Shown here: positions 27,153-47,731 of the stretch, piece after piece
Position numbering within the stretch: the stretch's first letter is position 1
Layout of the letters: each line of letters starts with the position of its first letter
NCBI GenBank assembly: GCA_021654635.1
Contig: AP025179.1
Coordinates: 930,001-994,000 of the forward strand
Length of the DNA: 64,000 bases
DNA from: Mycobacterium kiyosense
GTDB lineage: Bacteria > Actinomycetota > Actinomycetes > Mycobacteriales > Mycobacteriaceae
Reading direction: 5' to 3'
Notes under the pieces: model-generated
Told to the model about the DNA's origin: nothing
What the model saw: only the letters and a program-made list of their open reading frames with translations
Database searches by the model: none
Program-made: the position numbers and the translations under genes

Positions 27153-27300
27153 CAGCGTTCCCCCCGCTAAGTCCTGTGTGTTCTGAGCCTAAAGCGGGCG
27201 CCAGGTTACGGCGAATCGAGCAAATTCGCGGGTTTTGCCTCGGTGTTCTCCGAGTTTGCACGGATGTTTTGCCGTCGAGGCTGCGCACATGCTGGCTAGC

Positions 27301-30300
27301 ATGAGCGCAGATACGGTGAATTGGAGCGACCTGGGCGTGAACGAGCTGCCGACCGGAACGGTGACGCTGCTGCTCGCCGACATCGAGGGGTCGACCCGAC
27401 TGTGGGAAACCCAGCCCGAGCAGATGGCGTCCGCCGTCGCGCGGTTGGATCGCACGCTGGGTGATCTCGTCACCACCCACCACGGCGTGCGCCCGATCGA
27501 ACAGGGCGAGGGTGACAGCTTCGTGATCGCCTTCAGTCGCGCCGCCGACGCGGTGGCCTGTGCGGTCGATCTGCAGCGGGCCCCGTTGCAACCGATCCGG
27601 TTGCGTATCGGCATGCATACCGGCGACGTCCAGCTGCGCGATCCGGTGAGCGGGGATGCGAACTACGTCGGGCCGGCGATCAACCGGGCCGGCCGGCTGC
27701 GTGATCTGGCGCACGGGGGACAGACGGTGCTGTCCAGCGCGACCGAGGCGATGGTCCTCGACAACCTGCCCGCGCAGGCGTGGCTCACCGATCTGGGCAC
27801 CTATCGGCTTCGCGATCTGCCGCGCCCGGAGCAAGTTCTGCAGCTGTGCCACCCGGAGCTCGGTAACGAGTTCCCGCCCTTACGTACACCGAAAACTGGT
27901 GCAGTACATAATCTTCCAGCGCAGCTGACCAGCTTCATCGGGCGCGGTGAACAACTGGCCGAGATACGGCGCATGTTGGGCACCAGCCGGCTGGTGACGT
28001 TGACGGGTGCCGGCGGCGTAGGGAAAACCCGGCTGGCCATCGAGGTCGCCGGTGGGTTGGCCACCGAGCCGACGGGTGCGCTGTGGTTCGTCGACCTGGC
28101 GCCGATCGCCGATTCCGACATCGTGGCGATCGCCGCGGCGCGGGCGCTGGGCCTGCCCGACCAGCCGGGCCGCTCCACCACGGAGACGCTGGTGGGCTTC
28201 ATCGGGGACCGTCAGATGCTGATCGTGCTGGACAACTGCGAGCACCTGTTGGACGCGACGGCGGCGCTGGTGGGGGCGCTGCTCAGCGCGTGCGCGGGGC
28301 TGCGGTTGCTGGTGACCAGCCGGGAGCCGATCGGCGTGGCAGGCGAGGCGATCTGGCGGGTGCCGTCGCTGTCGCTGAACGACGAGGCGGTCGACCTGTT
28401 CGTCGACCGGGCTCGACTGGTCCGGCCCGAGTTCCGCCTCGCCGACCAGCGCGACGTGGTCTGCGACATCTGCAGTCGGCTGGACGGGATGCCGCTGGCC
28501 ATCGAACTGGCGGCCGCGCGGGTGCGCGCGCTGTCCGTGGACGAGATCCGCGACAGCCTGCACGACCGTTTCCGGCTGTTGACCGGCACCACTCGCGCCG
28601 CGGTGCGGCGTCAGCAGACGCTGCGGGCTTCGGTCGACTGGTCGCACGCGTTGTTGACCGAATCGGAACGGGTGCTGTTCCGGCGACTGGCGGCGTTCGT
28701 CGGCGGCTTCGATCTGGCAGCGGTGCGTGCCGTTGCCGGGGGTAGCGAGGTCGAGCGTTACCAGGTGCTCGACCAGCTCACCTTGCTGGTGGACAAGTCG
28801 CTGGTAGTTGCCGAAAGCCCTAGTGGTGCAACGCGATACCGGATGTTGGAGACGGTGCGCCAGTACGCGCTGGAGAAGCTCGGTGAGTCGGGCGAAGGTG
28901 ACGACGTACGAGCGCGTCACCGTGACCACTATCTGGAAGTCGCGGCGTCGCTGGAAAACGGGGCGGCCGATCAACAGCAGATCGACCGGGTGGCTGTCGA
29001 GATCGATAATCTGCGTGCGGTTCTCGCCTGGAGCGTGGACCAGGGTGACAGCGACAGCGCCTTGCGGTTGGCGTCGGCGCTGGTGCCGCTGTGGTTGATC
29101 AGCGGGCGGGTACGCGAGGCGCTGATGGCGTGGTTCGATGCGGCGCTGGGCCAAAATGAAGGCGCCGCAGCAACATCCGCGGTTCGCGCTCGTGCCCTCG
29201 CCGACCGCGCCCTGCTGCACACCTGGGCGATCGGGGTGGACAGCGCGACGTGGGCCGAACAAGCCGTGACGATGGCTCGCGAAATCGGCGACCCGGCGCT
29301 GCTTGCCCGTGCGCTCACGGCCTGCGGGGTGATGACCGCCTATGGTGGCCAAGACGGCCGGCAGTATTTCGACGAGGCGTTCGGTTTGGCCCGCCCGCTG
29401 GGCGACAAGTGGCTGATTGTCCAGCTGTTGGGGTGGCAAACGAACTTGGCTTTCATGAACGGTGACGTTCCGGCCGCTCGCAAGTTCGGAGAAGAAGGGG
29501 AGCAGCTGGCGGAGGTCGTCGGTGATCGCTTCACCCGCCGACAGTGTTGCAACTGGCTGGGCTGGGCTCGAACTGTCAGCGGAGATCTCGCGGGCGCGAT
29601 CGACCAGCTGCGGGGCGTCGAAGCGGACGCGGAGGCGGCCGGCGACGGTATGTGGTGGACGGTGAGCAGGCACATGCTCGGATTAGCCCATGCGTACCGA
29701 GGCGACCTCGAGACCGCTCTGGGCATCTTCGACGAAAGTATGCCGATCCTTGCCGAGATGGGTGACCTTTGGCTCGGTAACGGCAACGGTGTGCACGCCG
29801 CGGCGATGCTGGCGGCGGGGGAGGTGCTCGAGGCGGACCGGCTGAGTGAATTGTGCCGCCAGCAGTTGAACGCTAACCCGATACACCAGTGGATGCACAC
29901 CTATCTACGGGCCGAAGTCGCGCTGGCTCAGGGCGACCCGGCCGGGGCGCACCGGTGGGCTGATGAGTCGGTCTCGGTGTCCTCCGGCTGGTACCGGGTG
30001 TTGGCGCTTGAGGCCCGCACCCGGGTGGCGATCGCGCGGGGGGAATACGAGCAGGCCGAGCGCGATGCCCACGAGGCGTTGTCGCTGGCGGCGAATCTGG
30101 GCGCGTTGCTCGGAATTCCGGATATCTTCGAGCTGCTGGCGATACTCGCCGGCCAGGCCGAGCGGCGTGCTGAAGCGTGCCGGCTGTTCGGCGCCGCTGC
30201 CGCGCTCCGGCAGCGGATGGGCGCGGTCCGGTTCAAGGTGCACGACGCCGCGCCCGACGATGCGGTCGCTCGGTTACGGGATGCCTTCGGCGACAACGAA

Positions 30301-30588
30301 TTCGACGTCGCATACGCCGAGGGCGCCGCGATGTCCACCGAGGATTCGATCGCTTATGCGCAACGGGGCCGCGGGGAGCGGCGCCGTCCGTCCACCGGTT
30401 GGGCGTCGCTCACCCCGACCGAGTGCGCCGTCGTCGGCCTGGTCAGCGAGGGACTGGGGAACAAAGCAATCGCCGCAAGGCTTTTCGTCTCGCTGCGGAC
30501 GGTGGAGAGCCACCTCACCCATGTGTATACGAAGCTCGGATTGTCATCCCGGGTCCAGCTGGTGCAGGAGGCCGCTCGCCATTCGTGA
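27301..30588 (+). CDS. Cyclase-like / NB-ATPase / LuxR transcriptional regulator (Rv0386, Rv1358, Rv2488c family)
   Basis: The 1095-residue protein has, in order, a class III cyclase domain (about residues 18-180), an NB-ARC/AAA-type ATPase (Walker A GAGGVGKT at 236-243, Walker B LIVLDNCEHLL near 308), a helical TPR-like region and a C-terminal LuxR helix-turn-helix (last 60 residues, with LTPTECAVVGLVSEGLGNKA). In the cyclase, metal aspartates D27 and D72 and transition-state N128 and R132 are kept. The purine-selecting Lys and Asp are Gln68 and Asn121, the noncanonical pair described for Rv0386, so activity may be weak or altered. ATG 27301 is preferred. The amidase gene begins 13 bp downstream. 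Confidence 0.88.
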   Translation: MSADTVNWSDLGVNELPTGTVTLLLADIEGSTRLWETQPEQMASAVARLDRTLGDLVTTHHGVRPIEQGEGDSFVIAFSRAADAVACAVDLQRAPLQPIRLRIGMHTGDVQLRDPVSGDANYVGPAINRAGRLRDLAHGGQTVLSSATEAMVLDNLPAQAWLTDLGTYRLRDLPRPEQVLQLCHPELGNEFPPLRTPKTGAVHNLPAQLTSFIGRGEQLAEIRRMLGTSRLVTLTGAGGVGKTRLAIEVAGGLATEPTGALWFVDLAPIADSDIVAIAAARALGLPDQPGRSTTETLVGFIGDRQMLIVLDNCEHLLDATAALVGALLSACAGLRLLVTSREPIGVAGEAIWRVPSLSLNDEAVDLFVDRARLVRPEFRLADQRDVVCDICSRLDGMPLAIELAAARVRALSVDEIRDSLHDRFRLLTGTTRAAVRRQQTLRASVDWSHALLTESERVLFRRLAAFVGGFDLAAVRAVAGGSEVERYQVLDQLTLLVDKSLVVAESPSGATRYRMLETVRQYALEKLGESGEGDDVRARHRDHYLEVAASLENGAADQQQIDRVAVEIDNLRAVLAWSVDQGDSDSALRLASALVPLWLISGRVREALMAWFDAALGQNEGAAATSAVRARALADRALLHTWAIGVDSATWAEQAVTMAREIGDPALLARALTACGVMTAYGGQDGRQYFDEAFGLARPLGDKWLIVQLLGWQTNLAFMNGDVPAARKFGEEGEQLAEVVGDRFTRRQCCNWLGWARTVSGDLAGAIDQLRGVEADAEAAGDGMWWTVSRHMLGLAHAYRGDLETALGIFDESMPILAEMGDLWLGNGNGVHAAAMLAAGEVLEADRLSELCRQQLNANPIHQWMHTYLRAEVALAQGDPAGAHRWADESVSVSSGWYRVLALEARTRVAIARGEYEQAERDAHEALSLAANLGALLGIPDIFELLAILAGQAERRAEACRLFGAAAALRQRMGAVRFKVHDAAPDDAVARLRDAFGDNEFDVAYAEGAAMSTEDSIAYAQRGRGERRRPSTGWASLTPTECAVVGLVSEGLGNKAIAARLFVSLRTVESHLTHVYTKLGLSSRVQLVQEAARHS

Positions 30589-32053: not shown

Positions 32054-32159
32054 GTGTCGCCGCGCTCATCGGTCGAACCCGATCGGCGGTCTGGTTGCTG
32101 CCGGCCGCCGGCGCGTGGGTGCCGGCAGTCGATCGGCCGCCGGCCGCTAGTGTCGCTGT

Positions 32160-33338
32160 GTGGACTTCGAGCTCGACGACGAGCAGCGGGCCTGGCTGGC
32201 CGAGGTGCGTCAGTTCCTCGCGGACAACGTCACGGCAGCGCTGCGCGCCGAGATGGCCGAGCATGACCTCGAATTCCAGGGCGGTGAACTTTCGGCTTTT
32301 CGCCGCAAAATCGGTGCACGCGGCTGGTTCGGGCTGAACTGGCCCCGCGAGTACGGCGGCCTCGGGCTGACGGCCACCCACCAGCACCTGTTGATGAGTG
32401 AGTTCGAGTACGCGGGCGTCCCGGGCCCGGACCTGACCGTCACCTCGGTGGCACCGATGATCATGCGGCACGGCACCGAGCAGAACAAGAAGGAATTCCT
32501 GCCGCCGATCGCCCGCGGCGAAATCATCTGTGCGGTGGGTTATTCCGAGCCCAATGCCGGCACTGACCTGGCCGGCTTGAAGACGCGCGCGGTCCGGGAC
32601 GGCGACCAGTGGGTGATCACCGGGTCCAAGATCTGGAACAGTGGGGCACAGCGCTGCACGCACGAATGGCTTTGCGTCCGGACCGATCCCGACGCGCCGC
32701 GGCACCGCGGGATCTCGGTGATCATGGTCCCCATCGACACGCCCGGCATCGAGATCCATCCGCTCTACGCGTGGTCGGGTTATCGCACCAACGAGACATT
32801 CTTCCGCGACGTACGGGTGCCCGTCACCAACCTGATCGGGGAGGTCAACCGCGGCTGGACCTACATCACCGGCGCGCTGGACTTGGAGCGTGGTGCGCTG
32901 ACCAATGCAGGCGATCTGCGCCGAGCCCTCGACGAGTTGGTGGCGTTGGCGTCCCGACCGTGCCGCGACGGTTTCGTGCCGGCCGGCGACCCTGCGTTTC
33001 GCCGGCGCCTGGCCCAAGCCGAGGCCGACGTGGAAGTGGCGAAACTGATGGGCTACGAAGCCGCCTCGTTGCTGGACTCCGGACGGATACCCACCGTCGA
33101 GGTCAGCGTCGAGAAGATCTTCACCAGCGAATTACGGCAGCGCATCGCGGATTTGGCGATCGACCTGCTCGGTCCCGACGGACTGCTGGCGCATCGCAGC
33201 GCCGACGCGCCCGCGGCCGGCTTCTTCGAGCGGCTGTACCGGGTGGCACCGCTGATGCGGTTCGGCGGCGGCACCAACGAGGTGCTGCGGGATGTGATCG
33301 CCCAGCGCGGTCACGCAATGCCCTCCTACGGCAGGTGA
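32160..33338 (+). CDS. Acyl-CoA dehydrogenase, FadE26/FadE28-like subunit
   Basis: The 392-residue flavoenzyme has the FAD/acyl-binding loop GYSEPNAGTDLA (near residues 125-136) and the C-terminal FGGGTNEVLRD. In standard medium-chain enzymes the last motif carries the catalytic Glu (YEGT); here it is GGGT, as in mycobacterial heteromeric FadE proteins, where the base sits elsewhere. It starts at GTG 32160 in a tight operon. Together with the next, shorter FadE it probably forms an alpha2beta2 enzyme of the ChsE type acting on bulky steroid-like acyl-CoA. The specific substrate is unknown. Confidence 0.88.
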   Translation: MDFELDDEQRAWLAEVRQFLADNVTAALRAEMAEHDLEFQGGELSAFRRKIGARGWFGLNWPREYGGLGLTATHQHLLMSEFEYAGVPGPDLTVTSVAPMIMRHGTEQNKKEFLPPIARGEIICAVGYSEPNAGTDLAGLKTRAVRDGDQWVITGSKIWNSGAQRCTHEWLCVRTDPDAPRHRGISVIMVPIDTPGIEIHPLYAWSGYRTNETFFRDVRVPVTNLIGEVNRGWTYITGALDLERGALTNAGDLRRALDELVALASRPCRDGFVPAGDPAFRRRLAQAEADVEVAKLMGYEAASLLDSGRIPTVEVSVEKIFTSELRQRIADLAIDLLGPDGLLAHRSADAPAAGFFERLYRVAPLMRFGGGTNEVLRDVIAQRGHAMPSYGR

Positions 33339-33342
33339 CCGC

Positions 33343-34455
33343 ATGCGACTGATACCCGATCAGGATGAGCAGGATCTGGCCGCCATGTGCCGCAAGGTAT
33401 TGAGCGCCGCCGGTCCCGCGACAGTGCCGCGTGCACCGCACGGCAACGACCACGTAACACCGGGACTTTGGAAATCGTTGGCCGAAGCGGGTCTGCTCGG
33501 ACTGCCGATCGAGGAGCGACTCGGCGGATCCGGCGGCACCCTGTCCGAATTCGGCGTCTTCTGCGTCGAAGCCGGACGGGCGTTGTGCCCCATGGGTGTG
33601 CACAGCAGCACGCATGCCGCGCTGGCCGTCGACTGGCTGGGTGGTTCGGCAGCGCGCGAAACCTGGCTGCCGGCGCTGGCGTCGGGCACTGCACGCGCGA
33701 CGACCGCGCTGTACAACCCGCGGGACGCCGCTGATGTCACCCCGAGGTTGCGCGCCCGCGCCGACGGCGACGGGCGCTGGCTGTTAACCGGTCGCCTGGA
33801 CTTCGTCAGCGACGCCGCTGCGGCCGACCTGATTGTCGTCACCGCCGATACCGGTTCAGCGACAATGGGTTTCGTTGTCGACACCGCCGACCTGCGGGTC
33901 CAGCCACTCGCCCTGATGGGCGGGTATCGGGCGTTCGCGGTGGAGTTGCACGATGTGCTCGTCGACGACCACCGCCGCGTCCTGGGTGAGCTGGCCGGCC
34001 CGGAGCTGCGCCGGGTGGTCAACGCGGCGGTGGCGCTGTTGAGCCTTGATTTGGTCGGCGTGGCCGACGCGGTGCTGCAACGTACCGTCGAGTACACCAA
34101 GATGCGCGAACAGTTCGGCCGTCCGATCGCCTCCTTCCAGGCGGCCCAGCATCTGGTGGCGGACATGCACATCGCGCTGGCGGCGGCGAGGTTGGCCGCT
34201 CACTCCGCGGTGTTCTGGATCGGTCGCGGCCGCACGGCCACCCGCGAGACCGCGATCGCCAGGATGCAGGCGTGCCGGGTCAAGCAGATCACGCTGGATG
34301 CCCACCAGTTGCACGGCGGCATGGGCTACGTCGTCGACACCGACCTGCACCTGTTCTCCGAACGCGCGCGCATCCTCGCGACGGTCGGGGGCGGCGCCGA
34401 CGAAGCCGCGAGATGGCTTGACGCAGAGATGAATTGGGAGGGCATGGGTGACTGA
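33343..34455 (+). CDS. Acyl-CoA dehydrogenase, FadE27/FadE29-like subunit
   Basis: The 370-residue protein starts 4 bp after the preceding FadE. The C-terminal ACAD domain is clear (TKMREQFGRPIASFQAAQHLVADM, in the AQH helix, and HGGMGYVVDTDLHLF), whereas the N-terminal half is divergent and lacks the full acyl-binding loop. That asymmetry is the pattern of the partner subunit in ChsE-type heterotetramers, where only one subunit of each pair holds a complete active site. It overlaps the start of the next gene by 8 bp. Confidence 0.87.
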   Translation: MRLIPDQDEQDLAAMCRKVLSAAGPATVPRAPHGNDHVTPGLWKSLAEAGLLGLPIEERLGGSGGTLSEFGVFCVEAGRALCPMGVHSSTHAALAVDWLGGSAARETWLPALASGTARATTALYNPRDAADVTPRLRARADGDGRWLLTGRLDFVSDAAAADLIVVTADTGSATMGFVVDTADLRVQPLALMGGYRAFAVELHDVLVDDHRRVLGELAGPELRRVVNAAVALLSLDLVGVADAVLQRTVEYTKMREQFGRPIASFQAAQHLVADMHIALAAARLAAHSAVFWIGRGRTATRETAIARMQACRVKQITLDAHQLHGGMGYVVDTDLHLFSERARILATVGGGADEAARWLDAEMNWEGMGD

Positions 34456-34948
34456 AAGCCTCATCGATCCGGACTCGATGGCGCGCGTCGGCAGCGTGGT
34501 AGCCACCGCCGTCGGCGAGGTGAGCAGGCGGGACTGGCAACGGTGGGCCGCCGCGGTCGGCGACCACAACCCGTTGTGGTTCGAACCCGAATACGCACGC
34601 GCACATGGTTACCGAGACATCGTCTGCCCACCGCTTTACCTGCAGTACGCCGTCCTGGGCGTCACCAGCCTGGACGAGCTGCGACCCGACGGGTCATCCG
34701 GCGCCACCACCGGCAGCCTGGCTTTCCCGCGCGCTCCGCGGCGGATGGCCGGCGGCGAGAGCACCACCTTCCACGCCCCGGCCTATCACCACGACCAGGT
34801 ACAGCTGGTGCGGACCATCGACTCGATCGTGGAAAAGGAAGGCAGATCAGGCCGATTCGTCCTGGTGACCTGGAGTGCCGAATACCGCAATCAGGGTGGC
34901 GAGCTTCTTGCCGAAACCACCACGTCGATGATCGCGAGGCCCGCGTGA
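34448..34948 (+). CDS. MaoC-like hotdog protein, ChsH2 N-domain type
   Basis: The 166-residue hotdog-fold protein has VGDHNPLWFEPEYARAHGY near residues 37-55. The hydratase motif keeps Asp and Asn, but the catalytic His after NPL is Trp, so it may be the non-catalytic partner. In the cholesterol igr operon, ChsH2 has such a MaoC domain fused to a DUF35 domain; here the MaoC part is a separate gene and the DUF35 protein is encoded two genes later. It starts at GTG 34448, and a GTGA overlap with the next gene implies coupled translation and a heteromeric complex. Confidence 0.85.
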   Translation: MTESLIDPDSMARVGSVVATAVGEVSRRDWQRWAAAVGDHNPLWFEPEYARAHGYRDIVCPPLYLQYAVLGVTSLDELRPDGSSGATTGSLAFPRAPRRMAGGESTTFHAPAYHHDQVQLVRTIDSIVEKEGRSGRFVLVTWSAEYRNQGGELLAETTTSMIARPA

Positions 34949-35370
34949 CCGGGCAGCTATACTATGAGGACGTCGAAACCGGTTCGGCGATAACCACATT
35001 GACCGTGACGGTGACCGAGACGCAGATGTTCTTGTTCAGCGCCGCGACCTATAACGGGCACCGCATCCACTACGACAAGGATTGGGCGCGCGACGTCGAA
35101 GGCTACGACAACGTCCTGGTCCAGGGGCCGCTCCAGGCGGCCTTGTTGTCGCGGGCGCTGACCGACTGGGTCGGCGGCGACGGCAGACTGGTCCGGTTCT
35201 CGGTGCAGAACCGCGCCGTCGCATACCCGGGTCAGGAGTTGACGTTCGGTGGCGTCGTGACCGGCAAGGCGGACGGCCTGGTGGACCTGGACGTCTTCTG
35301 CCGGCGCGGCGACGACGTGTTGATGCCCGGCACTGCGACCGTCGCACTGCCGCACCGGGCCGGCCGATGA
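34945..35370 (+). CDS. MaoC-like enoyl-CoA hydratase, ChsH1 type
   Basis: The 141-residue hotdog hydratase has the SAATYNGHRIHYDKDWARDV segment near residues 28-47, carrying the catalytic His of single-hotdog dehydratases, and VLVQGPLQAALLSRAL in the central helix. The start is GTG 34945, inside the preceding stop (GTGA), and the stop overlaps the next start (ATGA). It most likely pairs with the MaoC protein encoded just before to hydrate the enoyl-CoA made by the FadE pair. The inference rests on the igr operon model. Confidence 0.87.
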   Translation: MTGQLYYEDVETGSAITTLTVTVTETQMFLFSAATYNGHRIHYDKDWARDVEGYDNVLVQGPLQAALLSRALTDWVGGDGRLVRFSVQNRAVAYPGQELTFGGVVTGKADGLVDLDVFCRRGDDVLMPGTATVALPHRAGR

Positions 35371-36569
35371 GCGGATTGCGGGGCGAGGCGGCCATCGTCG
35401 GCATCGCGGAACTGCCCGCCGAACGCCGCCAGAGTCGGCCGCCGTCGTTCACCCTGGACCAGTACGCACTGCTGGCGAAGATGGTGATCGAGGACGCGGG
35501 CGTCGATGCGGCGGTGGTGAACGGTCTTTCGTGTCACGGCCTCGCGGAGTCGGACATGTTTGCGCCGGCCACCCTTTCGGAGTATCTGGGGATCCCGCTG
35601 GACTTCGGCGACCGAGTGGACCTGGGCGGTGCGACCGCTGCCGGCATGGTCTGGCGGGCGGCCGCGGCGGTGGAACTGGGTGTGTGCGACGCGGTGCTGG
35701 TGGTGGTTCCGGGGTCGTTGGAGATTCCGCGCTCGCAGCGCCGGCCCGGCCGCACCCTGGGCTGGTACGGGGCGTCGAGCAACAACTATGGTTCACCGCA
35801 GGCCGAGTTCGAGATCCCCTACGGCAACGTCGGACAGAACGCGCCGTACGCCCAGATAGCCCAGCGCTATGCGGCCGAATACGGCTACGATGCAGCCGCT
35901 TTGGCGCGGATCGCAGTACAGCAGCGCACCAACGCCTGCGCCCACCCGGGCGCGGTGTTCCACGGCAAGCCGCTCACCGTCGAGGATGTGCTGAGCAGCC
36001 CGGTGATCGCCGACCCGATCCGCATGCTGGAGACGGTGATGCGGGTGCAGGGTGGGGCCGGGGTGTTGGTCGCCAATGCCGATGTGGCGCGCCGTGCCCG
36101 GCACCGGCCGGTCTGGGTCAAGGGCTTCGGTGAGCACATCCGCTTCAAAACCCCCACCTACGCCGACGATCTGCTGCACACCCCGATCGGCCGCGCCGCC
36201 GAAAAGGCTTTCACGATGGCCGGTTTGGTCCGCGACGACGTTGACGTCGCTTCGATCTATGACTGCTACACCATCACCGTGCTGATGACGCTGGAAGATG
36301 CGGGCTTCTGCAGCAAAGGTGCGGGCATGAGGTGGCTCACCGAACACGACCTGACCTTCCGGGGCGATTTCCCGGTCAACACCGCCGGCGGCCAATTGTC
36401 GTTCGGACAGGCCGGGATGGCCGGCGGCATGCATCACGTGGTCGACGGCGCCCGGCAGCTCATGGGCCGGTCCGGGGATGCGCAGGTCCGCGACTGCAAC
36501 ACCGCATTCGTGACGGGCAATGGCGGCATCATGAGCGAGCAGGTTGCCCTGCTGCTGGGAGGCGACTGA
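35367..36569 (+). CDS. Thiolase-fold lipid-transfer protein, Ltp2-like aldolase
   Basis: The 400-residue thiolase-superfamily protein has a thiolase-like N-terminal domain (VDLGGATAAGMVWRAAAAVE) in which the nucleophilic Cys of true thiolases is absent. The C-terminal part has SIYDCYTITVLMTLEDAGFC and NTAGGQLSFGQAGMAGGMH in place of the usual Cys-Gly loop. Loss of the thiolase cysteines is the mark of Ltp2-type retro-aldolases, which cleave beta-hydroxy acyl-CoA in steroid side-chain removal with a DUF35 partner. ATG 35367 overlaps the previous stop. The DUF35 gene follows directly, supporting this role. Confidence 0.85.
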   Translation: MSGLRGEAAIVGIAELPAERRQSRPPSFTLDQYALLAKMVIEDAGVDAAVVNGLSCHGLAESDMFAPATLSEYLGIPLDFGDRVDLGGATAAGMVWRAAAAVELGVCDAVLVVVPGSLEIPRSQRRPGRTLGWYGASSNNYGSPQAEFEIPYGNVGQNAPYAQIAQRYAAEYGYDAAALARIAVQQRTNACAHPGAVFHGKPLTVEDVLSSPVIADPIRMLETVMRVQGGAGVLVANADVARRARHRPVWVKGFGEHIRFKTPTYADDLLHTPIGRAAEKAFTMAGLVRDDVDVASIYDCYTITVLMTLEDAGFCSKGAGMRWLTEHDLTFRGDFPVNTAGGQLSFGQAGMAGGMHHVVDGARQLMGRSGDAQVRDCNTAFVTGNGGIMSEQVALLLGGD

Positions 36570-36570
36570 G

Positions 36571-36978
36571 ATGACTGATCCCCGGCCGCTGCCCGAGCCG
36601 ACGCCGGTATCGCAGCCATTCTGGGATGCGTTGCGCGAGCACAAGATCCGGATTCAATACTCGCCGTCGACCGGTCGCTACGTCTTCTACCCGCGCACCT
36701 TGGCGCCCGGAACGCTGGCCGACGACCTGGAATGGCGCGAAATCGACGGCGCCGGAACGTTGTACACCTACACGGTCGCGCGCCGTCCCACCGGTCCGCC
36801 ATGGGCAGATCAGCTGCCGCAACTTCTCGCGGTCGTGCAGTGGGACGTCGGACCCCGGGTCAGCACCGAGTTGGTCGAGGTCGCGCCCGAGGACATCCGG
36901 ATCGGCATGCGGGTCTGCCCGGTGTTCTGCGACGCCGGCGACGTGACGTTGTTGCGGTACAGGCCCGCCGATGATTGA
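36571..36978 (+). CDS. DUF35-type OB-fold protein without the zinc-ribbon cysteines
   Basis: The 135-residue protein matches the DUF35 layout: an N-terminal helix (PVSQPFWDALREHKIRIQY), a ribbon position, then an OB fold (GAGTLYTYTVARRP, LLAVVQWDVGPRVSTEL, IRIGMRVCPVF). The usual CxxC...CxxC is missing; the first pair reads as S-P-S-T and there is no second pair. The start is ATG 36571, directly after the aldolase stop, and the gene overlaps the ligase start by 8 bp. DUF35 proteins dock onto Ltp2 aldolases, so it is the likely partner of the preceding gene product. Confidence 0.85.
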   Translation: MTDPRPLPEPTPVSQPFWDALREHKIRIQYSPSTGRYVFYPRTLAPGTLADDLEWREIDGAGTLYTYTVARRPTGPPWADQLPQLLAVVQWDVGPRVSTELVEVAPEDIRIGMRVCPVFCDAGDVTLLRYRPADD

Positions 36979-38593
36979 AACTCTGCAGCAGCTGCTGCGC
37001 TCCCGCATGCAGGACGACTCCGTGGCGGTGATGCACAATGATCGGACCTGGACCTGGCGCGAGCACCTGCGCGAGGCCTCGGCCGAGGCGTCGATGGTGT
37101 TGAACCTCCTCGACCGGCGCCGGCCGCTGCATGTCGCTGCGCTGCTGGGCAATTCGCCGGCGATGCTGCGGTCGATGGCTGCCGCCGCGCTGGGCGGGTA
37201 CGTGCTGTGCGGCATCAACACGACCCGTCGCGGGGCGGGTCTGGCGGCCGACATCGCCCGCTCGGACTCCCAACTGGTGCTGGTCGACGACGATCACCGG
37301 GCGCTGCTCGACGGTCTCGACCTGGGCGGTGTCGCCGTAGTCAACGTCGACGAAGCCGGGTATCGCGACGCGGTGGCGGCGGCGGGACCGCTGGTGCCCC
37401 GTGAGGTCGGCGGAGCCGATCCGGTGGTGATTATCTTCACCTCCGGCACCAGCGGCGATCCGAAGGCAGTGCGATTCGCCCACGCGATGGGCGTGCTGTG
37501 TGGGGCCAGTCTGGTTGAACGATTCGGGCTCACCCGCGACGACGTGTGCTACCTGGCGATGCCGCTGTTCCACTCCAACGGTGTCGCGGCGGGCTGGGTG
37601 GTGGCCCTGTGCGCGGGCGCGGCGATGGTGCCAGTCAAGTTCTCGCCGTCGCGATTCCTGGCCGACATCCGCCGCTACGGCATCACCTACCTGAACTACG
37701 TCGGCAAGCCACTGGCGCTGGTGCTGGCCACGCCGGAGCAGCCCGACGATGCCGACAACACGCTGCGTGCGGCGTTCGGGAACGAGGCCACCGAGCGCGA
37801 CATCGAGGAATTCGCAAAGCGTTTCGGCTGCCGGGTGGTGGACAGCTTCGGTTCCAGCGAATTCGCCGTCGTCGTGATGCGCGAAGACGGGACGCCGGCC
37901 GGCTCGATCGGCAGGGGGTATCCGGGCGTGAGTGTGTACCACCCCGACACGCTGACCGAATGTGCCCCAGCGCTTTTCGACGAGCACGACGCACTGACCA
38001 ACTTCGACGACGCCGTCGGCGAACTGGTCAACACCTACGGTTCCGGCGGCTTCACCGGCTACTACAACGATGCCGCGGCCACCGGTGAGCGGATGCGCCA
38101 CGGCATGTACTGGTCGGGCGATCTGGCCTACCGCGACGCCGACGGGTGGATCTACCTGGCCGGGCGGACCGCGGACTGGATGCGGGTGGACGGCGAGAAT
38201 CTCGCCGCAGGACCAATCGAGCGGATCCTGCAACGCCTACCCGAGGTCAACCACCTCGCCGTCTACGCCGTTCCCGACGAACGCGTCGGCGACCAGGTGA
38301 TGGCCGCGCTGGTGCTCAACAACGGAGCAACGTTGACGCCCAACCAATTCGGTGAATTCCTGGCCGCGCAGCCGGACCTGTCACCGAAAGCGTGGCCGCG
38401 GTATGTGCGGATCGAGGCCGCGCTGCCGCGGACCCCGACCAACAAGATCCTCAAACGCGAACTCGTCAAGGCCGGCCCGACCGCCGGGGACGGTGGGGTG
38501 TTGTGGGTGCGCTCGGAGCGGGGGCGGAGTACGTCGCTGCCGGTTAGTCGGGTCCGGGAGATAAATCAACGGCGGCAGCGTTTTTCGCTGTGA
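36971..38593 (+). CDS. Acyl-CoA synthetase, FadD17-like
   Basis: The 540-residue ANL enzyme has the P-loop IIFTSGTSGDPKAV (near residues 154-167), GSSEFAV, YWSGDLAYRDADG, and the C-terminal lysine in TPTNKILKREL. It closely resembles M. tuberculosis FadD17 (GTSGDPKAV, SMPLFHSN/AMPLFHSN and YVGKPL segments), which sits beside fadE26-fadE27 in that species. It would supply the CoA thioester that the rest of the operon degrades. The start overlaps the DUF35 gene by 8 bp. The last 40 or so residues are a basic extension (RSERGRSTSLPVSRVREINQ) beyond the usual family end. Confidence 0.88.
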   Translation: MIETLQQLLRSRMQDDSVAVMHNDRTWTWREHLREASAEASMVLNLLDRRRPLHVAALLGNSPAMLRSMAAAALGGYVLCGINTTRRGAGLAADIARSDSQLVLVDDDHRALLDGLDLGGVAVVNVDEAGYRDAVAAAGPLVPREVGGADPVVIIFTSGTSGDPKAVRFAHAMGVLCGASLVERFGLTRDDVCYLAMPLFHSNGVAAGWVVALCAGAAMVPVKFSPSRFLADIRRYGITYLNYVGKPLALVLATPEQPDDADNTLRAAFGNEATERDIEEFAKRFGCRVVDSFGSSEFAVVVMREDGTPAGSIGRGYPGVSVYHPDTLTECAPALFDEHDALTNFDDAVGELVNTYGSGGFTGYYNDAAATGERMRHGMYWSGDLAYRDADGWIYLAGRTADWMRVDGENLAAGPIERILQRLPEVNHLAVYAVPDERVGDQVMAALVLNNGATLTPNQFGEFLAAQPDLSPKAWPRYVRIEAALPRTPTNKILKRELVKAGPTAGDGGVLWVRSERGRSTSLPVSRVREINQRRQRFSL

Positions 38594-38670
38594 GTGAAAT
38601 CTTCTGCTCGGGCGGGTTTCCGCGCTTGCGGGAGCGCTATTTGTCGGTGGGTCTTCGTAGCATTCGGGGT

Positions 38671-40038
38671 ATGACGGCAAGCAGTCGCGAGGAGATCGTC
38701 GCGATCCTCGACGGGATCGACGAACTTCAGGACCGGTTGTGCGCGCTGACATTTGACGGACTGACCACACCCGAACACAAGCGGATCGTCCATCGGCTGG
38801 AACGCCAGGCCCGGCGTCCCCGAGCCGTCCAGCACACCCTGATCAACCAGCTGGCCGCCGGGGCCACGAAGGAAGAGTTGGGCGGATCCTTGAGTTCGGC
38901 GCTGGCCGACCTGCTGCACATCAACAAGAAAGAGGCGAGCCGCCGCATCGCCGACGCGGCCGACCTGGGACAGCGCCGCGCCATCACCGGGGAGCCGCTG
39001 GACCCGCTGTTGTCGAACACCGCCGCGGCGCACCTGGACGGGCGCATCGGTGACGGGCACCTGAAAGCGATCCGGGACTTCCTCAAGGATCTGCCCGCCA
39101 CGGTGGATCTCGGTGTTCGCGAAAGCGCGGAGGCCGTGCTGGCCGAGCTGGCCGTGGATCGTCGTCCCGACGAGCTAGCCGGCTTGGCATCGCAGCTGTT
39201 GGACTGGCTGCACCCCGATGGTGATTTCTCCGATGAGGAGCGCGCCCGCAAGCGCGGTATCAAACTCGGCAAGCAGCAATCCGACGGCATGTCCGCGATC
39301 AGCGGTCTGGTCAATCCGGAACTGCGAGCCACGCTCGAGGCTGTGTTGGCCAAGCTGGCAGCGCCCGGCGCGTGCAACCCTCAGGACGACGCCCCGGTGG
39401 TAGACGGCACACCCGATGCGGACGCGGCGCGTCGTGACTCCCGCAGCCAGGAGCAACGCAACCACGATGGCCTGTTGGCGGGACTGCGCGGGCTGTTGGC
39501 GTCGGGCGAGCTCGGCAGCCACCGCGGTCTGCCGGTGTCGATCGTGGTCACCGCCACCTTGCAGGATCTGGAGTCCGCGGCCGGTCGAGGGGTGACGGGT
39601 GGCGGCTCGAAAGTCCCTATCTCGGACCTGATTCGGATGGCGAGTCATGCGAATCATTACCTCGCCCTGTTCGATGGGGCCAAACCGCTGGCGCTGTACC
39701 ACACCAGGCGGCTGGCCTCACCCGCCCAGCGAATCATGTTGTATGCCAGGGATCGTGGGTGCACGCGGCCCGGTTGCACCGCGCCGGCGTACCACAGCGA
39801 GGTTCACCACGTCAGCGGCTGGAAGAACACCGGGCGCACCGACATCGGCGACCTGACGCTGGCCTGTGGCATCGACAACCGCCTGGTCGAAGACGGCGGA
39901 TTCACGACCCGCACCAACGCCAAGGGCGAGACAGAATGGCTGCCGCCGGCACACCTGGACCATGGGCAGCCGCGGATCAATCGGTATCACCACCCGGAGA
40001 AGCTGCTGATACCCGGCGATGACGACGACGAGCCTTAG
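38671..40038 (+). CDS. DUF222/13E12 repeat family protein with HNH nuclease domain
   Basis: The 455-residue protein has a long helical DUF222 region and, near residues 360-405, an HNH-like module: CTRPGCTAPAYHSEVHH, then DLTLACGIDNRLV. The 13E12 family is abundant and mobile-looking in mycobacteria, with many copies per genome; its function is unclear. The start is ATG 38671; the longer frame runs back to the ligase stop. The stop codon shares TTAG with the convergent P450 gene. It may have inserted between the catabolic operon and its P450. Confidence 0.87.
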   Translation: MTASSREEIVAILDGIDELQDRLCALTFDGLTTPEHKRIVHRLERQARRPRAVQHTLINQLAAGATKEELGGSLSSALADLLHINKKEASRRIADAADLGQRRAITGEPLDPLLSNTAAAHLDGRIGDGHLKAIRDFLKDLPATVDLGVRESAEAVLAELAVDRRPDELAGLASQLLDWLHPDGDFSDEERARKRGIKLGKQQSDGMSAISGLVNPELRATLEAVLAKLAAPGACNPQDDAPVVDGTPDADAARRDSRSQEQRNHDGLLAGLRGLLASGELGSHRGLPVSIVVTATLQDLESAAGRGVTGGGSKVPISDLIRMASHANHYLALFDGAKPLALYHTRRLASPAQRIMLYARDRGCTRPGCTAPAYHSEVHHVSGWKNTGRTDIGDLTLACGIDNRLVEDGGFTTRTNAKGETEWLPPAHLDHGQPRINRYHHPEKLLIPGDDDDEP

Positions 40039-41294
40039 TCAGCGGTTCCGGATGATCTTGGGCACTTGCTCCGGTAATCGACTTGCCAGTGCTTGATGCC
40101 GGTGATGAACGGCGAGCGCAGCCGCTCGGGTTCGGCCAGCGAAGCCACGTCGGGCAAGGTGTCGGCGATGGCGTTGAACATCAGGTCGATCGTCATGCGA
40201 GCCAGGTTGGCGCCGATGCAGTAATGCGCGCCGGTGCCCCCGAATCCGACGTGCGGGTTGGGGTTTCGCAGGATATTGAACGCCAGCGGATCGTCGAACA
40301 CGTCTTCATCGAAGTTGGCGGAGCGGTAGAACAGCACCACCCGCTGGCCCTTCTTGATTGCGACACCGCCGACTTCGGTGTCGACCATCGCGGTGCGCTG
40401 GAACGCGGTGATGGGTGTGGCCCACCGGATGATCTCGTCGGCCGCGGTTTTGGGGCGTTGGGCCTTGAACAGTTCCCACTGGTCGGGAAAGTCGGTGAAC
40501 GCCATCATGCCGTGGGTAATCGAGTTGCGGGTGGTCTCGTTTCCGGCGATGGCGAGCGTGACCACGAACATGCCGAACTCGGCCTCGGACAGGTTGCCGT
40601 CGGCGTCGGCCCGCAGCAGCGTCGAGACTATGTCGGGACCGGGATTCTCGGCCTTGCTGGCCGCCAATTGCATGGCGTACCACATCATTTCGGCAGCGGC
40701 CGTCAACGAGTTGTGCTCGGCGAACTCGGGGTCGTCGCTGCCGATCATCTGGTTCGACCAGTCGAACAACTGCTCGCGGTCCTCCACCGGCACCCCGAGC
40801 AGCCCGGCGATGGCCTGCAGCGGCAATTCGCAGGCCACCTGTCGGACGAAATCGCCCGACCCCTCGGCCGCCGCGCGGGCCGCGATCCGCTGCGCCCGCT
40901 CGCCGAGGTCGGCGCGCAACCGTTCCACGGCACGGGGCGTGAACCCGCGGGCGATGATCTTGCGCAGCCGGGTGTGCTCGGGGTCGTCCATCATGATCAT
41001 CGACGCCCGCCCGGCCTCGACCTGCGCCTGTGCCGCCTCCTGCGGGTAACGCGGCACGACGGACTTCTCGGCGGAGGAGAACACGTCACTGCGCAACGAC
41101 ACGTCGCGAACATCGCGGTGCTTGGTCACCACCCAGTAGCCGCCGTCACCGAATCCGCCCTGATCCAGTGGCTGCTCGTTCCACCAGACCGGGGCGGTGG
41201 CGCGTAACTCGGCGAATTCCTGCACCGGCAGGCGATGCGCATAGATGTCGGGATCGGTGAAGTCGAAGCCCGGTGGCAGGTTCGGAGCGGCCAT
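40035..41294 (-). CDS. Cytochrome P450 of the CYP125 type
   Basis: The 419-residue P450 has AGNETT at residues 250-255 (oxygen-activating I-helix), the ExxR motif EIIR at 287-290 and the heme-binding FGGTGAHYCIG with ligand C359. The N-terminus NLPPGFDFTDPDIYAHRLPV and the blocks RGFTPRAV, CELPLQAIAGLLGVP and FNILRNPNPHVGFGG are nearly those of M. tuberculosis CYP125, the steroid C26/C27 hydroxylase that heads the igr operon. It therefore probably hydroxylates a sterol-like side chain for the neighbouring FadE-MaoC-Ltp operon. Subfamily assignment needs alignment. Confidence 0.88.
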   Translation of the reverse strand: MAAPNLPPGFDFTDPDIYAHRLPVQEFAELRATAPVWWNEQPLDQGGFGDGGYWVVTKHRDVRDVSLRSDVFSSAEKSVVPRYPQEAAQAQVEAGRASMIMMDDPEHTRLRKIIARGFTPRAVERLRADLGERAQRIAARAAAEGSGDFVRQVACELPLQAIAGLLGVPVEDREQLFDWSNQMIGSDDPEFAEHNSLTAAAEMMWYAMQLAASKAENPGPDIVSTLLRADADGNLSEAEFGMFVVTLAIAGNETTRNSITHGMMAFTDFPDQWELFKAQRPKTAADEIIRWATPITAFQRTAMVDTEVGGVAIKKGQRVVLFYRSANFDEDVFDDPLAFNILRNPNPHVGFGGTGAHYCIGANLARMTIDLMFNAIADTLPDVASLAEPERLRSPFITGIKHWQVDYRSKCPRSSGTAD

Positions 41295-45104: not shown

Positions 45105-47731
45105 ATGCGGTCGCGGCGGGCGTTGCGGGTTCTCGTCGCAATCCTTGCGGTGCCGATCCTGTTCGTACCGCTGCTGGCGGGCCCGCCCACCGCGTACGAC
45201 GGCGAACCCACCATGGTCGGCAATCCAGTCGAGCACGTCGACACCCTGATCGGCACCGGGACCGGTGGCGCGGTGGTGGGCGAGATCAACGGATTCCCGG
45301 GGCGCTACCGTGCCGTTCGGCATGGTGCAGTACTCGCCGGACACGGTCAACAACTACGCGGGCTACGCCTACGACAATCCGCGGGCCACCGGGTTCAGCA
45401 TGACCCATGCATCGGTGGGTTGTCCTGCGTTCGGGGACATTTCGATGTTGCCGACCACCAGTGCCATCGGTTCGCAACCCTGGTACTCCTGGGAGCGGAT
45501 CGCGCACGACCGCACCGAAGTGGGCACGCCCGGTTACTACACGGTGCGGTTTCCCGACACGGGAGTCAAAAGCCGAACTCACCGCCGCCACCCACACCGG
45601 CATCGGCCGATTCAGCTACCCGCACGACGGCCGGCGGGCGCTGTTCCAGGTGCGTTCCGGTGCGTCGCTGGCCGGGACCTCCCGCGCGACCATCCAGATC
45701 GAGGAGGACAACACCACGATCACCGGGTGGGCCACCAGCGGATCGTTCTGCGACAAGTCCAACACCTACACCGTCTTCTTCGCGATGAAGTTCAATCAGC
45801 CGTTCCAGGCGTACGGCACCTGGGACGGCTACACGGTGACCGACGGTTCCCGCAACGCGAATTCCCCCTACAGCGGCGGATATGTCGAATTCCCCGCCGG
45901 TGCGGTGGTCGAGGTGCGAACCGCGATCTCCTACGTGGGCATCGAGGGTGCCCAGGCGAACCTCGCCGCCGAGGGTGCGACCAGCTTCGACGACATGCAC
46001 GCGGCTGCGGCCGCCGAATGGAACAGCGCACTCAAGCGCATCGCGATAGCCAGCCGCAATCCCAGCGATGTGCAGACCTTTTACAGCTGCCTGTACCGGT
46101 CGCTGTTGCACCCCAACACCTTCAACGACCACGACGGCCGCTACATCGGCTTCGACAACGTCATACACGTCGTGCCACAAGGACATACGCAATACGCCAA
46201 CTTTTCTGACTGGGATACCTATCGCAGCCTGGCCGCCCTGCAGGCACTGATCTTCCCAGAACGCGCCAGCGACATGGCCCAGTCGCTGGTCAACGACGCC
46301 GAGCAGAGCGGGGCGCTACCCCGGTGGGCGCTGGCGAACGCCGCGACCAGCCAGATGACCGGCGACAGCGTGGTTCCGCTCATCGTGGGCTTCTACATGT
46401 TCGGGGCCAAGGATTTCGATACCCGGGCGGCGCTGGGCTACATGGTCGATGCGGCAACGAGTGGCGGTGCCGGACGCAACGGATACGTGGAGCGGCCCGG
46501 AATCGATACCTATCTACGGCTGGGCTACGCGCCGCAGCTGCCCGAATTCGGGCCCGGCGCCTCGGTCACCCTGGAATGGTCGCTCGCCGACTTCACCATC
46601 GGCCGATTCGCCGACGCACTGGGCGACTCCGCCACCGCCGCGGAATTTCAGCGCCGATCCCAGTATTGGCAGAACCTGTTCAATCCCACAACCCGGTACA
46701 TCTCGCCGCGCGGCCCGAACGGATTTTTCCGCACCGGGCCGGGATTCGTGGAAAACCACTCGGGATTCGGCCAATTCGGTTACGACGAGGGCAATGCCGA
46801 GCAGTATCTGTGGTGGGTGCCCCACAACGTGGCCGGGTTGGCTACCGCGCTGGGCGGTCGCAGCGCTGCCGCACAGCGGCTCGACCGGTTCACCAAGCGC
46901 CTCAACGTGGGGCCGAACAAGCCCTACCTGTGGGCGGGCAACGAGCCGGGTTTCGGCGTGCCGTGGTTGTACAACTACTTCGGTCAACCCTGGCAGACCC
47001 AGCGCACCGTCGACCGGGTGCGCGGCCTGTTCGCCCCGAGCCCCGACGGCGCTCCGGGCAACGACGATCTCGGAGCGCTGTCCAGCTGGTATGTCTGGGC
47101 GGCGCTGGGCCTGTATCCGAGCACCCCGGGCACTCCGATCCTGACGGTCGCCACACCGCTGTTCGACCGCGCTGAAATCGCCCTTCCGGCAGGTAAATTC
47201 ATCCGGATCACCGCGCCCGGGGCCTCCGGTGTCAACCGGTTGAAGTACATCAGGAGCCTCAGCATCGACGGGCAACCCACCGATCGCACCTACCTGCCCG
47301 AATCGATCATCCGCACCGGCGGTGATCTCGCCTTCATGCTGGCGGGGCGACCCGACAAATCCTGGGGCACCGCCGAGTCCTCGGCGCCGCCGTCTTTCCA
47401 GGCGGGTAGCGCGGCGGTGACCAGCAACGTCGCCCAACCGGTACTGGCCATCGCGCCGGGGACGACGGGAACCGTCGAACTCGACTTGCAGCGGATGATC
47501 GACGGCCCCGCCGGCTACACAGTCTCCGGCGCCGTAGCAGCGGGCGGAGTCACGGTGGCGCCGGTATCCGGGCAGTTCGGCGACGACGGTTCAGCCACCG
47601 TCGACGTCGCGATCACAGTGGCATCGTCGGTGCCCGACGACCAATACCCGGTCTATCTGACGACCACCGTGGACGGCAGCAGAAGTCGCGCCGTAGTCGT
47701 CCTGGTGACCCGCCCGTCGTTCGATGAATAG
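45105..47731 (+). pseudogene. GH92-type exported alpha-mannosidase (Rv0584 homologue), two frameshifts as sequenced
   Basis: The coding region spans three frames. Frame one (ATG 45105) gives a signal peptide ([19 protein letters not shown]) and [11 protein letters not shown]. After INGFPG it shifts at the G run 45299-45302 to [20 protein letters not shown]. After DTGVK it shifts again at the A run 45568-45571 to [16 protein letters not shown], which continues to the stop. Removing one base at each run gives a full-length product of about 874 residues, close to the 877 I recall for Rv0584. The PFGMVQ-SPDT, GFS-TH and W-NYFGQPW blocks fit family GH92 alpha-1,2-mannosidases. Rv0584 is between lpqN and Rv0585c, as here. 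Confidence 0.87.

Follow-up and report, generated by a model that had tools for sequence, protein, structure and literature searches.

Background

In the literature consulted, removal of acetyl-CoA from steroid side chains by aldol cleavage is reported from Proteobacteria, above all from those that degrade bile acids, while the actinobacterial case is the HBC side branch (PMC12329534, PMC10398937). In Comamonas testosteroni, structure 9MYR pairs the bile-acid aldolase CtSal with the DUF35 domain of CtShy (PMC12329534), CtShy being a single MaoC-DUF35 protein (PMC11321319). In Mycolicibacterium neoaurum, the HBC operon atf1-chsH4-chsE6-kstR3 encodes a Sal-type aldolase, Atf1, proven by knock-out and complemented by sal1, and a stand-alone DUF35 protein, ChsH4 (PMC10398937). 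Two further systems bear on the comparison: the igr operon (cyp125-fadE28-fadE29-chsH2-chsH1-ltp2) and the cas cluster of Rhodococcus jostii RHA1, in which C5 side chains are the substrates of CasG and C3 side chains those of CasI; as reviewed, RHA1 is said to lack Sal1 and to use thiolysis (CasB) on the C5 chain, which spares the re-activation of the C3 acid that aldolysis requires (PMC8399759). Here we describe a seven-gene cassette, accompanied by a P450 gene, in a 64,000-nt stretch of the 6.35-Mb genome of Mycobacterium kiyosense (GCA_021654635.1, contig AP025179.1, positions 930,001-994,000, forward strand), called the window below.

Going by gene content, gene order, tree positions, active-site residues and co-occurrence, we read the cassette as a module by which Actinobacteria would shorten the C5-type (24-oyl) side chain of a steroid or steroid-like compound through aldol cleavage, and give this reading a probability of roughly 0.58. 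Retro-aldol chemistry appears likely, as does a C5 rather than a C3 side chain, and the balance tips towards a steroid as the substrate. If this is right, the cassette suggests that a fuller and widespread actinobacterial version of the aldolytic route exists, one that brings along a dehydrogenase, a hydratase and a ligase (its type of aldolase is found in 85 of 248 sampled genomes of the genus).

Results and discussion

The cassette and its conservation

Seven genes lie on the + strand at window positions 32160-38593, and the P450 gene is convergent with them:

32160..33338, +: FadEa, alpha-type acyl-CoA dehydrogenase subunit, 392 amino acids (aa), presumed catalytic (Pfam acyl-CoA dehydrogenase)
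33343..34455, +: FadEb, partner acyl-CoA dehydrogenase, 370 aa, presumed non-catalytic (Pfam acyl-CoA dehydrogenase; tree)
34448..34948, +: MaoC1, ChsH2-like inert hydratase subunit (Pfam FAS1_DH_region; alignment; Foldseek)
34945..35370, +: MaoC2, ChsH1-like catalytic hydratase subunit (Pfam MaoC_dehydratas; alignment; Foldseek)
35367..36569, +: Sal-type retro-aldolase, 400 aa, Tyr298/Cys300 dyad in a YDCY motif (Pfam Thiolase_C_1; tree; residues)
36571..36978, +: stand-alone DUF35/OB-fold partner, 135 aa (PF01796, OB_ChsH2_C; 124.7 bits to 9MYR_B)
36971..38593, +: FadD1 acyl-CoA ligase, 540 aa, FadD17/CasI group (Pfam AMP-binding; NF009927)
40035..41294, -: CYP125-family P450, 419 aa (Pfam p450; 646.5 bits to 3IVY)

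The junctions are, in order, a gap of 4 bp, overlaps of 8, 4 and 4 bp, a gap of 1 bp and an overlap of 8 bp. A first-pass annotation of this DNA had drawn the same order of two FadE, two MaoC, aldolase, DUF35 and ligase genes, tightly joined, with a P450 facing them, and the coordinates and Pfam matches bear it out. Its broader description, a side-chain beta-oxidation cassette of igr-like layout beside a true CYP125 homologue, is likewise supported.

When one genome from each of 84,980 species was scanned, a relative of the aldolase turned up in 364 places, of which the best 80 were kept for locus counts. The order FadEa-FadEb-MaoC1-MaoC2-aldolase-DUF35 recurs on one strand in 74 of these 80 loci, and therefore does not reflect chance; the other six are without one to three of the six genes, five of them being short loci cut at a contig end. 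FadD1 (at least 70% identity) is present in 70 loci, and of the ten without it four end soon after the aldolase or DUF35 gene (L057, L061, L081, L100) and six lie outside Mycobacterium. CYP125 (at least 67%) falls within the fetched flanks of 24 loci: in 21 it lies past the aldolase, in 3 ahead of FadEa. Among named relatives, M. gordonae and M. asiaticum come closest when the cassette is compared.

Within the genus (248 genomes, aldolase search at E 1e-150), an aldolase match occurs in 168 genomes, and the matches listed form two groups with none between: one at 76% identity or more (85 genomes), the other at 66% or less and of the type of a second copy that this genome carries at 258 kb. A second match is also listed in 71 of the 85 genomes with the cassette type. 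All cassette genes and CYP125 have open reading frames and are under purifying selection, with ratios of nonsynonymous to synonymous differences (pN/pS) of 0.11-0.44 across eight genes against five near relatives; the values are 0.11-0.27 for the cassette genes and CYP125 except FadEb, with FadEa at 0.12-0.16. FadEb is the fastest-evolving cassette gene (0.30-0.44).

No description of the cassette was found in a search of the open-access literature, in which a minority of the papers listed was consulted. Two aldolase genes of M. neoaurum, thlA and thlB, are required for 4-HBC according to PMC12409849, and one or the other might be a relative of the window aldolase.

The aldolase and its DUF35 partner

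The best solved relative of the aldolase is 9MYR_A (CtSal) at 438.6 bits, against 129.3 bits for 6OK1_A, the Ltp2 of Thermomonospora curvata. A 23-row tree places it inside the Sal clade (support 100/100), with six Ltp2s in a separate clade (100/99) and the 258-kb paralogue adjoining the cassette aldolases (87/69). The motif YDCY stands in all 12 Sal-clade rows and YDHF in all 6 Ltp2 rows. Aligned with CtSal, the window residues Q157, Y161, Y298, C300, Y301, Q343, Q348 and G387 agree, the residues at these places in the Ltp2 rows being P, V, Y, H, F, Q or L, E and G; CtSal residues Gln161, Tyr165, Gln347, Gln352 and Gly391 are thus retained. Because both its clade and its active-site residues are those of Sal, a Sal-type rather than an Ltp2-type cut is predicted.

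The cassette shares with CtSal-CtShy the aldolase clade, the dyad, most active-site residues and a DUF35 partner, here a gene beside the aldolase; it differs in that the hydratase is encoded by two MaoC genes, and in two further features. The CtSal His59 loop is absent from the window aldolase by alignment, and the zinc cysteines of CtShy are all missing from the DUF35 protein, so that no C3H1 zinc finger is found. Both features are said to exclude flat sterols, the loop by a clash (PMC12329534), and since both are absent the aldolase would fit a substrate with flat rings. The 258-kb pair is without loop and zinc cysteines too. Aldolases free of the features thought to exclude flat sterols may be of use for making C22 steroid building blocks.

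Hydratase, dehydrogenase, ligase and P450

In MaoC1, Trp or Tyr replaces the catalytic His in 23 of 23 aligned rows, as in ChsH2, which has Tyr there (PMC11321319). In MaoC2, Asn37 and His42 (N-x-H-R-I-H) are invariant in 19 of 19 rows, and its NGHRIHYD stretch is the same in itaconyl-CoA hydratase. A sequence search of the PDB gives MaoC1 only distant matches, among them a weak one to ChsH1-ChsH2 chains. With the predicted folds (mean predicted local distance difference test score 78.5 for MaoC1, 80.0 for MaoC2), the Foldseek top matches are HadA and the longer ChsH1-ChsH2 chain for MaoC1, and the shorter chain for MaoC2 (two PDB entries name these chains differently, hence "longer" and "shorter"). 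With an inert MaoC1, a catalytic MaoC2 and these fold matches, the ChsH1-ChsH2 division of labour therefore seems to be present, the DUF35 part being on a separate gene.

The FadE pair is a third clade of its kind. FadEa (99/100) and FadEb (100/99) make up two separate clades, FadEa beside FadE26/FadE29, with FadE26 joined to FadE29 (98/98) and FadE27 to FadE28 (95/92); the tree carries a warning that long branches may have drawn FadE27 and FadE28 together, and likewise the fused FadE and several others, FadEb included. The best PDB matches of FadEa are 6WY8_B (274 bits) and, from a different entry, 4X28_A (264 bits), both of which we take to be steroid enzymes. Its catalytic residue is presumably the glutamate of DLERG, by analogy to isovaleryl-CoA dehydrogenase.

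The ligase passes the FadD1 model NF009927 (904.8 bits, curated cut-off 800), falls below the FadD17 model NF005897 (564 bits, cut-off 850) and the CasI model NF052587 (510.6 bits, cut-off 900), and groups in a tree with the FadD1 of other cassettes. The genome holds a second FadD1 (62% identity, 920 bits). The P450 scores 646.5 bits to the CYP125 structure 3IVY, the first non-CYP125 match being CYP124A1 at 305.2 bits, and is one of three CYP125s in the genome, with copies at 2.97 Mb (71%) and in the igr region (66%). In a tree made without the igr fragment and without the unsuitable outgroup row own_L015, it lies outside the igr CYP125 group (93/100), with deeper forks open; the cassette-side CYP125s form two groups whose joining fork is open, ten of them being joined at 89/94 in a tree that included own_L015, and a single origin for them is thus not proven. 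Three CYP125s of M. neoaurum oxidise cholesterol (PMC13254585). The cassette gives a pathway context both to FadD1 and to extra CYP125 copies.

Substrate clues from relatives and the proposed route

Clues to the substrate come from relatives in other genera. Among 196 Nocardioides genomes (the genus of G256, the genome of L083), the cassette aldolase occurs in 9, and CasG, a steroid-24-oyl-CoA synthetase, is over its cut-off in all 9, against 33 of the 187 genomes without the aldolase (Fisher p 4.6e-7, kinship ignored). The two genes are 9.6-11.2 kb apart, start to start and on the same strand, in 6 of the 9, 53 and 71 kb apart in two, and on different contigs in one. An Ltp2 of the Amycolatopsis taiwanensis type (81-86% identity) is found in 8 of the 9 against 6 of the 187 (p 5.6e-10, kinship ignored). 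In A. taiwanensis itself (L112, L161, L162), a CasI-like ligase (638 bits, below the cut-off of 900) comes after the cassette, and then an amidase, ChsH2-, ChsH1-, Ltp2- and FadA5-like genes, two FadE genes (one double, one single) and CasG (800 bits against a cut-off of 750). All six non-mycobacterial genomes tested have CasG over its cut-off and this type of Ltp2 (83-85% in five; the sixth is the query itself). The cassette is accompanied by CasG-type ligases in Nocardioides and Amycolatopsis, and by a CasI-like one in Amycolatopsis, as in the cas cluster of RHA1 (PMC8399759). A ligase of the CasI/FadD17 group, such as the cassette has, would be what an aldolytic route needs.

Other partners vary. 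Directly 3' of CasG in Amycolatopsis is a carboxyltransferase-like gene (mmdA-type model, below cut-off; L162:8384-9892). Two CoA-transferases stand in the cassette in the Nocardioides, Rhodococcus and A. taiwanensis loci, and FadD1 (at least 40% coverage and 30% identity) was not found in the Nocardioides and Rhodococcus loci. A relative on a Rhodococcus qingshengii plasmid (L120, NZ_CP147922.1 25272-56471) has around it an ATP-binding cassette (ABC) transporter, two CoA-transferases, short-chain dehydrogenases/reductases (SDRs), a flavin monooxygenase, a Rieske protein and AlkB.

The route that we propose predicts a substrate, an order of steps and an activity for each protein. A P450 of the CYP125 kind with ordinary beta-oxidation, or else uptake of a bile-acid-like acid, would lead to a 24-oyl-CoA. 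The FadEa-FadEb pair would then introduce a C22-C23 double bond, and a MaoC1-MaoC2 heterodimer would add water at C22. The aldolase, seated on DUF35, would cut C22-C23 through Tyr298/Cys300, and should release acetyl-CoA from the C5-type chain, not propionyl-CoA from a C3 one, leaving a C22 carbonyl product. After oxidation of the aldehyde by a further enzyme, FadD1, in place of the CasI-like ligase of Amycolatopsis, would re-esterify the C22 acid for the Ltp2 cycle. The suggestion that the cassette follows igr logic on a different substrate or at another step survives in sharpened form: it is probably the preceding, acetyl-CoA-releasing step, by an aldolytic route.

The Baeyer-Villiger-type gene and competing explanations

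Several observations weigh against the C5 module. The link to 24-oates depends on relatives outside the genus, since CasG is over its cut-off in none of the three mycobacterial genomes tested; conversely, only 9 of the 42 CasG-bearing Nocardioides have the cassette aldolase, and the AlkB, Rieske and ABC context of the Rhodococcus plasmid is not specific to steroids. A scan of 36 window proteins turned up no aldehyde dehydrogenase. The KstR1 operator motif, matched strictly, gives no hit in the window, whereas igr (L033:14153) and the region before fadE26 (L038:8185) have a single hit each. In the aldolase, CtSal Thr355 is replaced by Met; YDCY would by itself be no proof, as the genome's own paralogue L019, outside both the Sal and Ltp2 clades, carries it too; and the Gln352 column aligns here with a Glu of the T. 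curvata Ltp2, where PMC12329534 pairs Tyr344. Lastly, a Baeyer-Villiger-type gene present in 53 of 74 mycobacterial loci fits a ketone product at least as well as an aldehyde, and its association is the least explained part of the cassette.

This gene encodes a flavin monooxygenase at least 55% identical to that of L064, and is found in 53 of 83 fetched loci, all of them among the 74 mycobacterial ones; an alpha/beta hydrolase (at least 45%) is likewise found in 53 of the 83. Both stand mostly between DUF35 and FadD1 or just past CYP125. Several independent origins of the association are possible, as L083, L108, L117 (50%), L119 and the R. qingshengii plasmid (54%) hold a more distant monooxygenase. 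In Caenibius, a Baeyer-Villiger enzyme converts progesterone to testosterone acetate (PMC12239570), and the pair of monooxygenase and hydrolase could remove either a C22 aldehyde or a C20 ketone. Since a relative of the steroid monooxygenase gene and a gene of esterase type each lie beside the cassette in so many loci, we raise, as a tentative idea with the odds against it, an undescribed mycobacterial route in which Sal-type retro-aldol cleavage is joined with a Baeyer-Villiger reaction and hydrolysis of the ester, these two standing in for aldehyde oxidation; the lineage of the window, of the M. gordonae/asiaticum type, would have lost or moved the pair and kept a dedicated CYP125.

The same gene pair speaks for a different substrate, a non-steroid cyclic or methyl-branched isoprenoid, from which retro-aldol cleavage would remove acetyl-CoA where a beta-branch blocks thiolysis, the methyl ketone product then being shortened by Baeyer-Villiger oxidation and ester hydrolysis. 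Phenylacetone monooxygenase is close to the L064 protein, the one compared (540.6 bits), but the best solved match is a steroid monooxygenase (618.6 bits); the window genome encodes no near copy of the L064 enzyme (best 54%), and none was seen in the window cassette. The plasmid form with its ABC transporter, AlkB and SDRs would suit an isoprenoid, as would the lack of a strict KstR1 box; the linkage to CasG and Ltp2 in Nocardioides and Amycolatopsis, and CYP125 near 24 of the 80 loci, speak for a steroid, and we consider the isoprenoid unlikely.

Less probable again is that the cassette encodes redundant isozymes of the HBC branch, making the same C22-C23 cut on a sterol-derived 22-hydroxy-24-oyl-CoA as Atf1-ChsH4 with a hydratase and dehydrogenase of its own. 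The set of an Atf1 orthologue with ChsE6 and KstR3 sits at 258 kb (L034), outside the window, and the cassette aldolase and DUF35 protein are each 63-64% identical to that pair, the two aldolases being neighbours in the tree. Against redundancy, both aldolase types are mostly kept together within the genus, and FadE, MaoC and FadD are encoded in the cassette itself, which also differs in its neighbours. It shares the Sal-type aldolase and stand-alone DUF35 with the M. neoaurum operon (PMC10398937), and differs in having separate FadEs, two MaoC genes and FadD1, with no fused double FadE and no adjoining TetR. The HBC-type operon of this genome (L034:7488-13610) comprises TetR, a fused double FadE, a Sal-type aldolase and DUF35, and an aldehyde dehydrogenase follows on the other strand.

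The first-pass proposal of a true igr-like C3 cassette, releasing propionyl-CoA by an Ltp2-type cut, has in its favour the nearby CYP125 and the shared layout (FadE and MaoC both in pairs, with an aldolase and DUF35), but is very improbable given an aldolase with the clade and active-site residues of Sal, a FadE pair other than FadE28/29, only 27-41% identity to igr counterparts for all proteins except CYP125 (highest over short MaoC1 stretches), and separate Ltp2s in the six non-mycobacterial relatives tested.

Comparison with the igr operon

The cassette is like the igr operon in layout, in enzyme classes and in having a CYP125 homologue; it differs in its clades, in having Sal rather than Ltp2, in the added ligase, and in its P450, which is convergent on the opposite strand where igr cyp125 is an operon member. 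"Igr-like" would thus fit the layout of the cassette and not its ancestry. Three names given in the first-pass annotation give way accordingly: the Ltp2-like aldolase is of the Sal type (30-32% identity to igr Ltp2), the FadD17-like ligase is a FadD1, and the FadE28/29-like pair forms clades of its own (35-38% identity to igr FadE29, 29-30% to FadE28). Its emphasis on a split ChsH2 also falls away. The MaoC and DUF35 halves are indeed two cassette genes (34448-34948 and 36571-36978), but a stand-alone DUF35 was known before in ChsH4 (PMC10398937) and an Ltp2-type operon of Nocardioides looks split as well (L157:1542-1961 and 1958-2536), which rules out the split as a novelty.

The canonical igr operon, which that annotation advised looking for, is present at about 5.81 Mb (L033), with Ltp2, ChsH2 and FadE29. 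The window is an additional set, and the possibility of a displaced sole igr operon is ruled out. The igr CYP125 and FadE28 of this genome each read in two frames (L033:11734-14054); in four relatives read, FadE28 is single-frame in all four and CYP125 in three (L147 also has two frames). The genome's fadD17 is also broken as read (L038:11507-12115). These breaks are either real decay or assembly error.

Surroundings of the cassette

Two further features adjoin the genes listed above:

32148..32153, +: TAGTGT, candidate -10 box, 6 nt upstream of the FadEa GTG start, weak (upstream comparison)
38590..40038, +: DUF222/HNH gene between ligase and P450 (Pfam)

In all 11 upstream regions inspected, of 79 collected, TANTGTCGC stands directly 5' of the FadEa start, and the candidate -10 box would weakly suggest a leaderless FadEa transcript. 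No common palindromic operator was found upstream of FadEa in the 79 regions, where motifs are limited to single clades (the best, TGGTC-N6-GACCA, in 14).

The DUF222/HNH gene, which we take to be 13E12-like, had been missed in the first-pass annotation, which was right about the neighbouring CYP125. It begins on the FadD1 stop codon, and its reading frame is open. A relative (62%) has the same position in one of the 80 loci (L110), L040 has a 56-residue piece, and the FadD1 C-terminus is unlike that of ten relatives compared. The gene is probably a later insertion outside the pathway, and looks like a targeted one. It and an amidase, which precedes FadEa, are the cassette's immediate neighbours. 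Upstream of the amidase, a protein of 1117 aa (window 27235-30588) combines cyclase and LuxR-type domains, and a family 92 glycosyl hydrolase is encoded at window 45407-47731.

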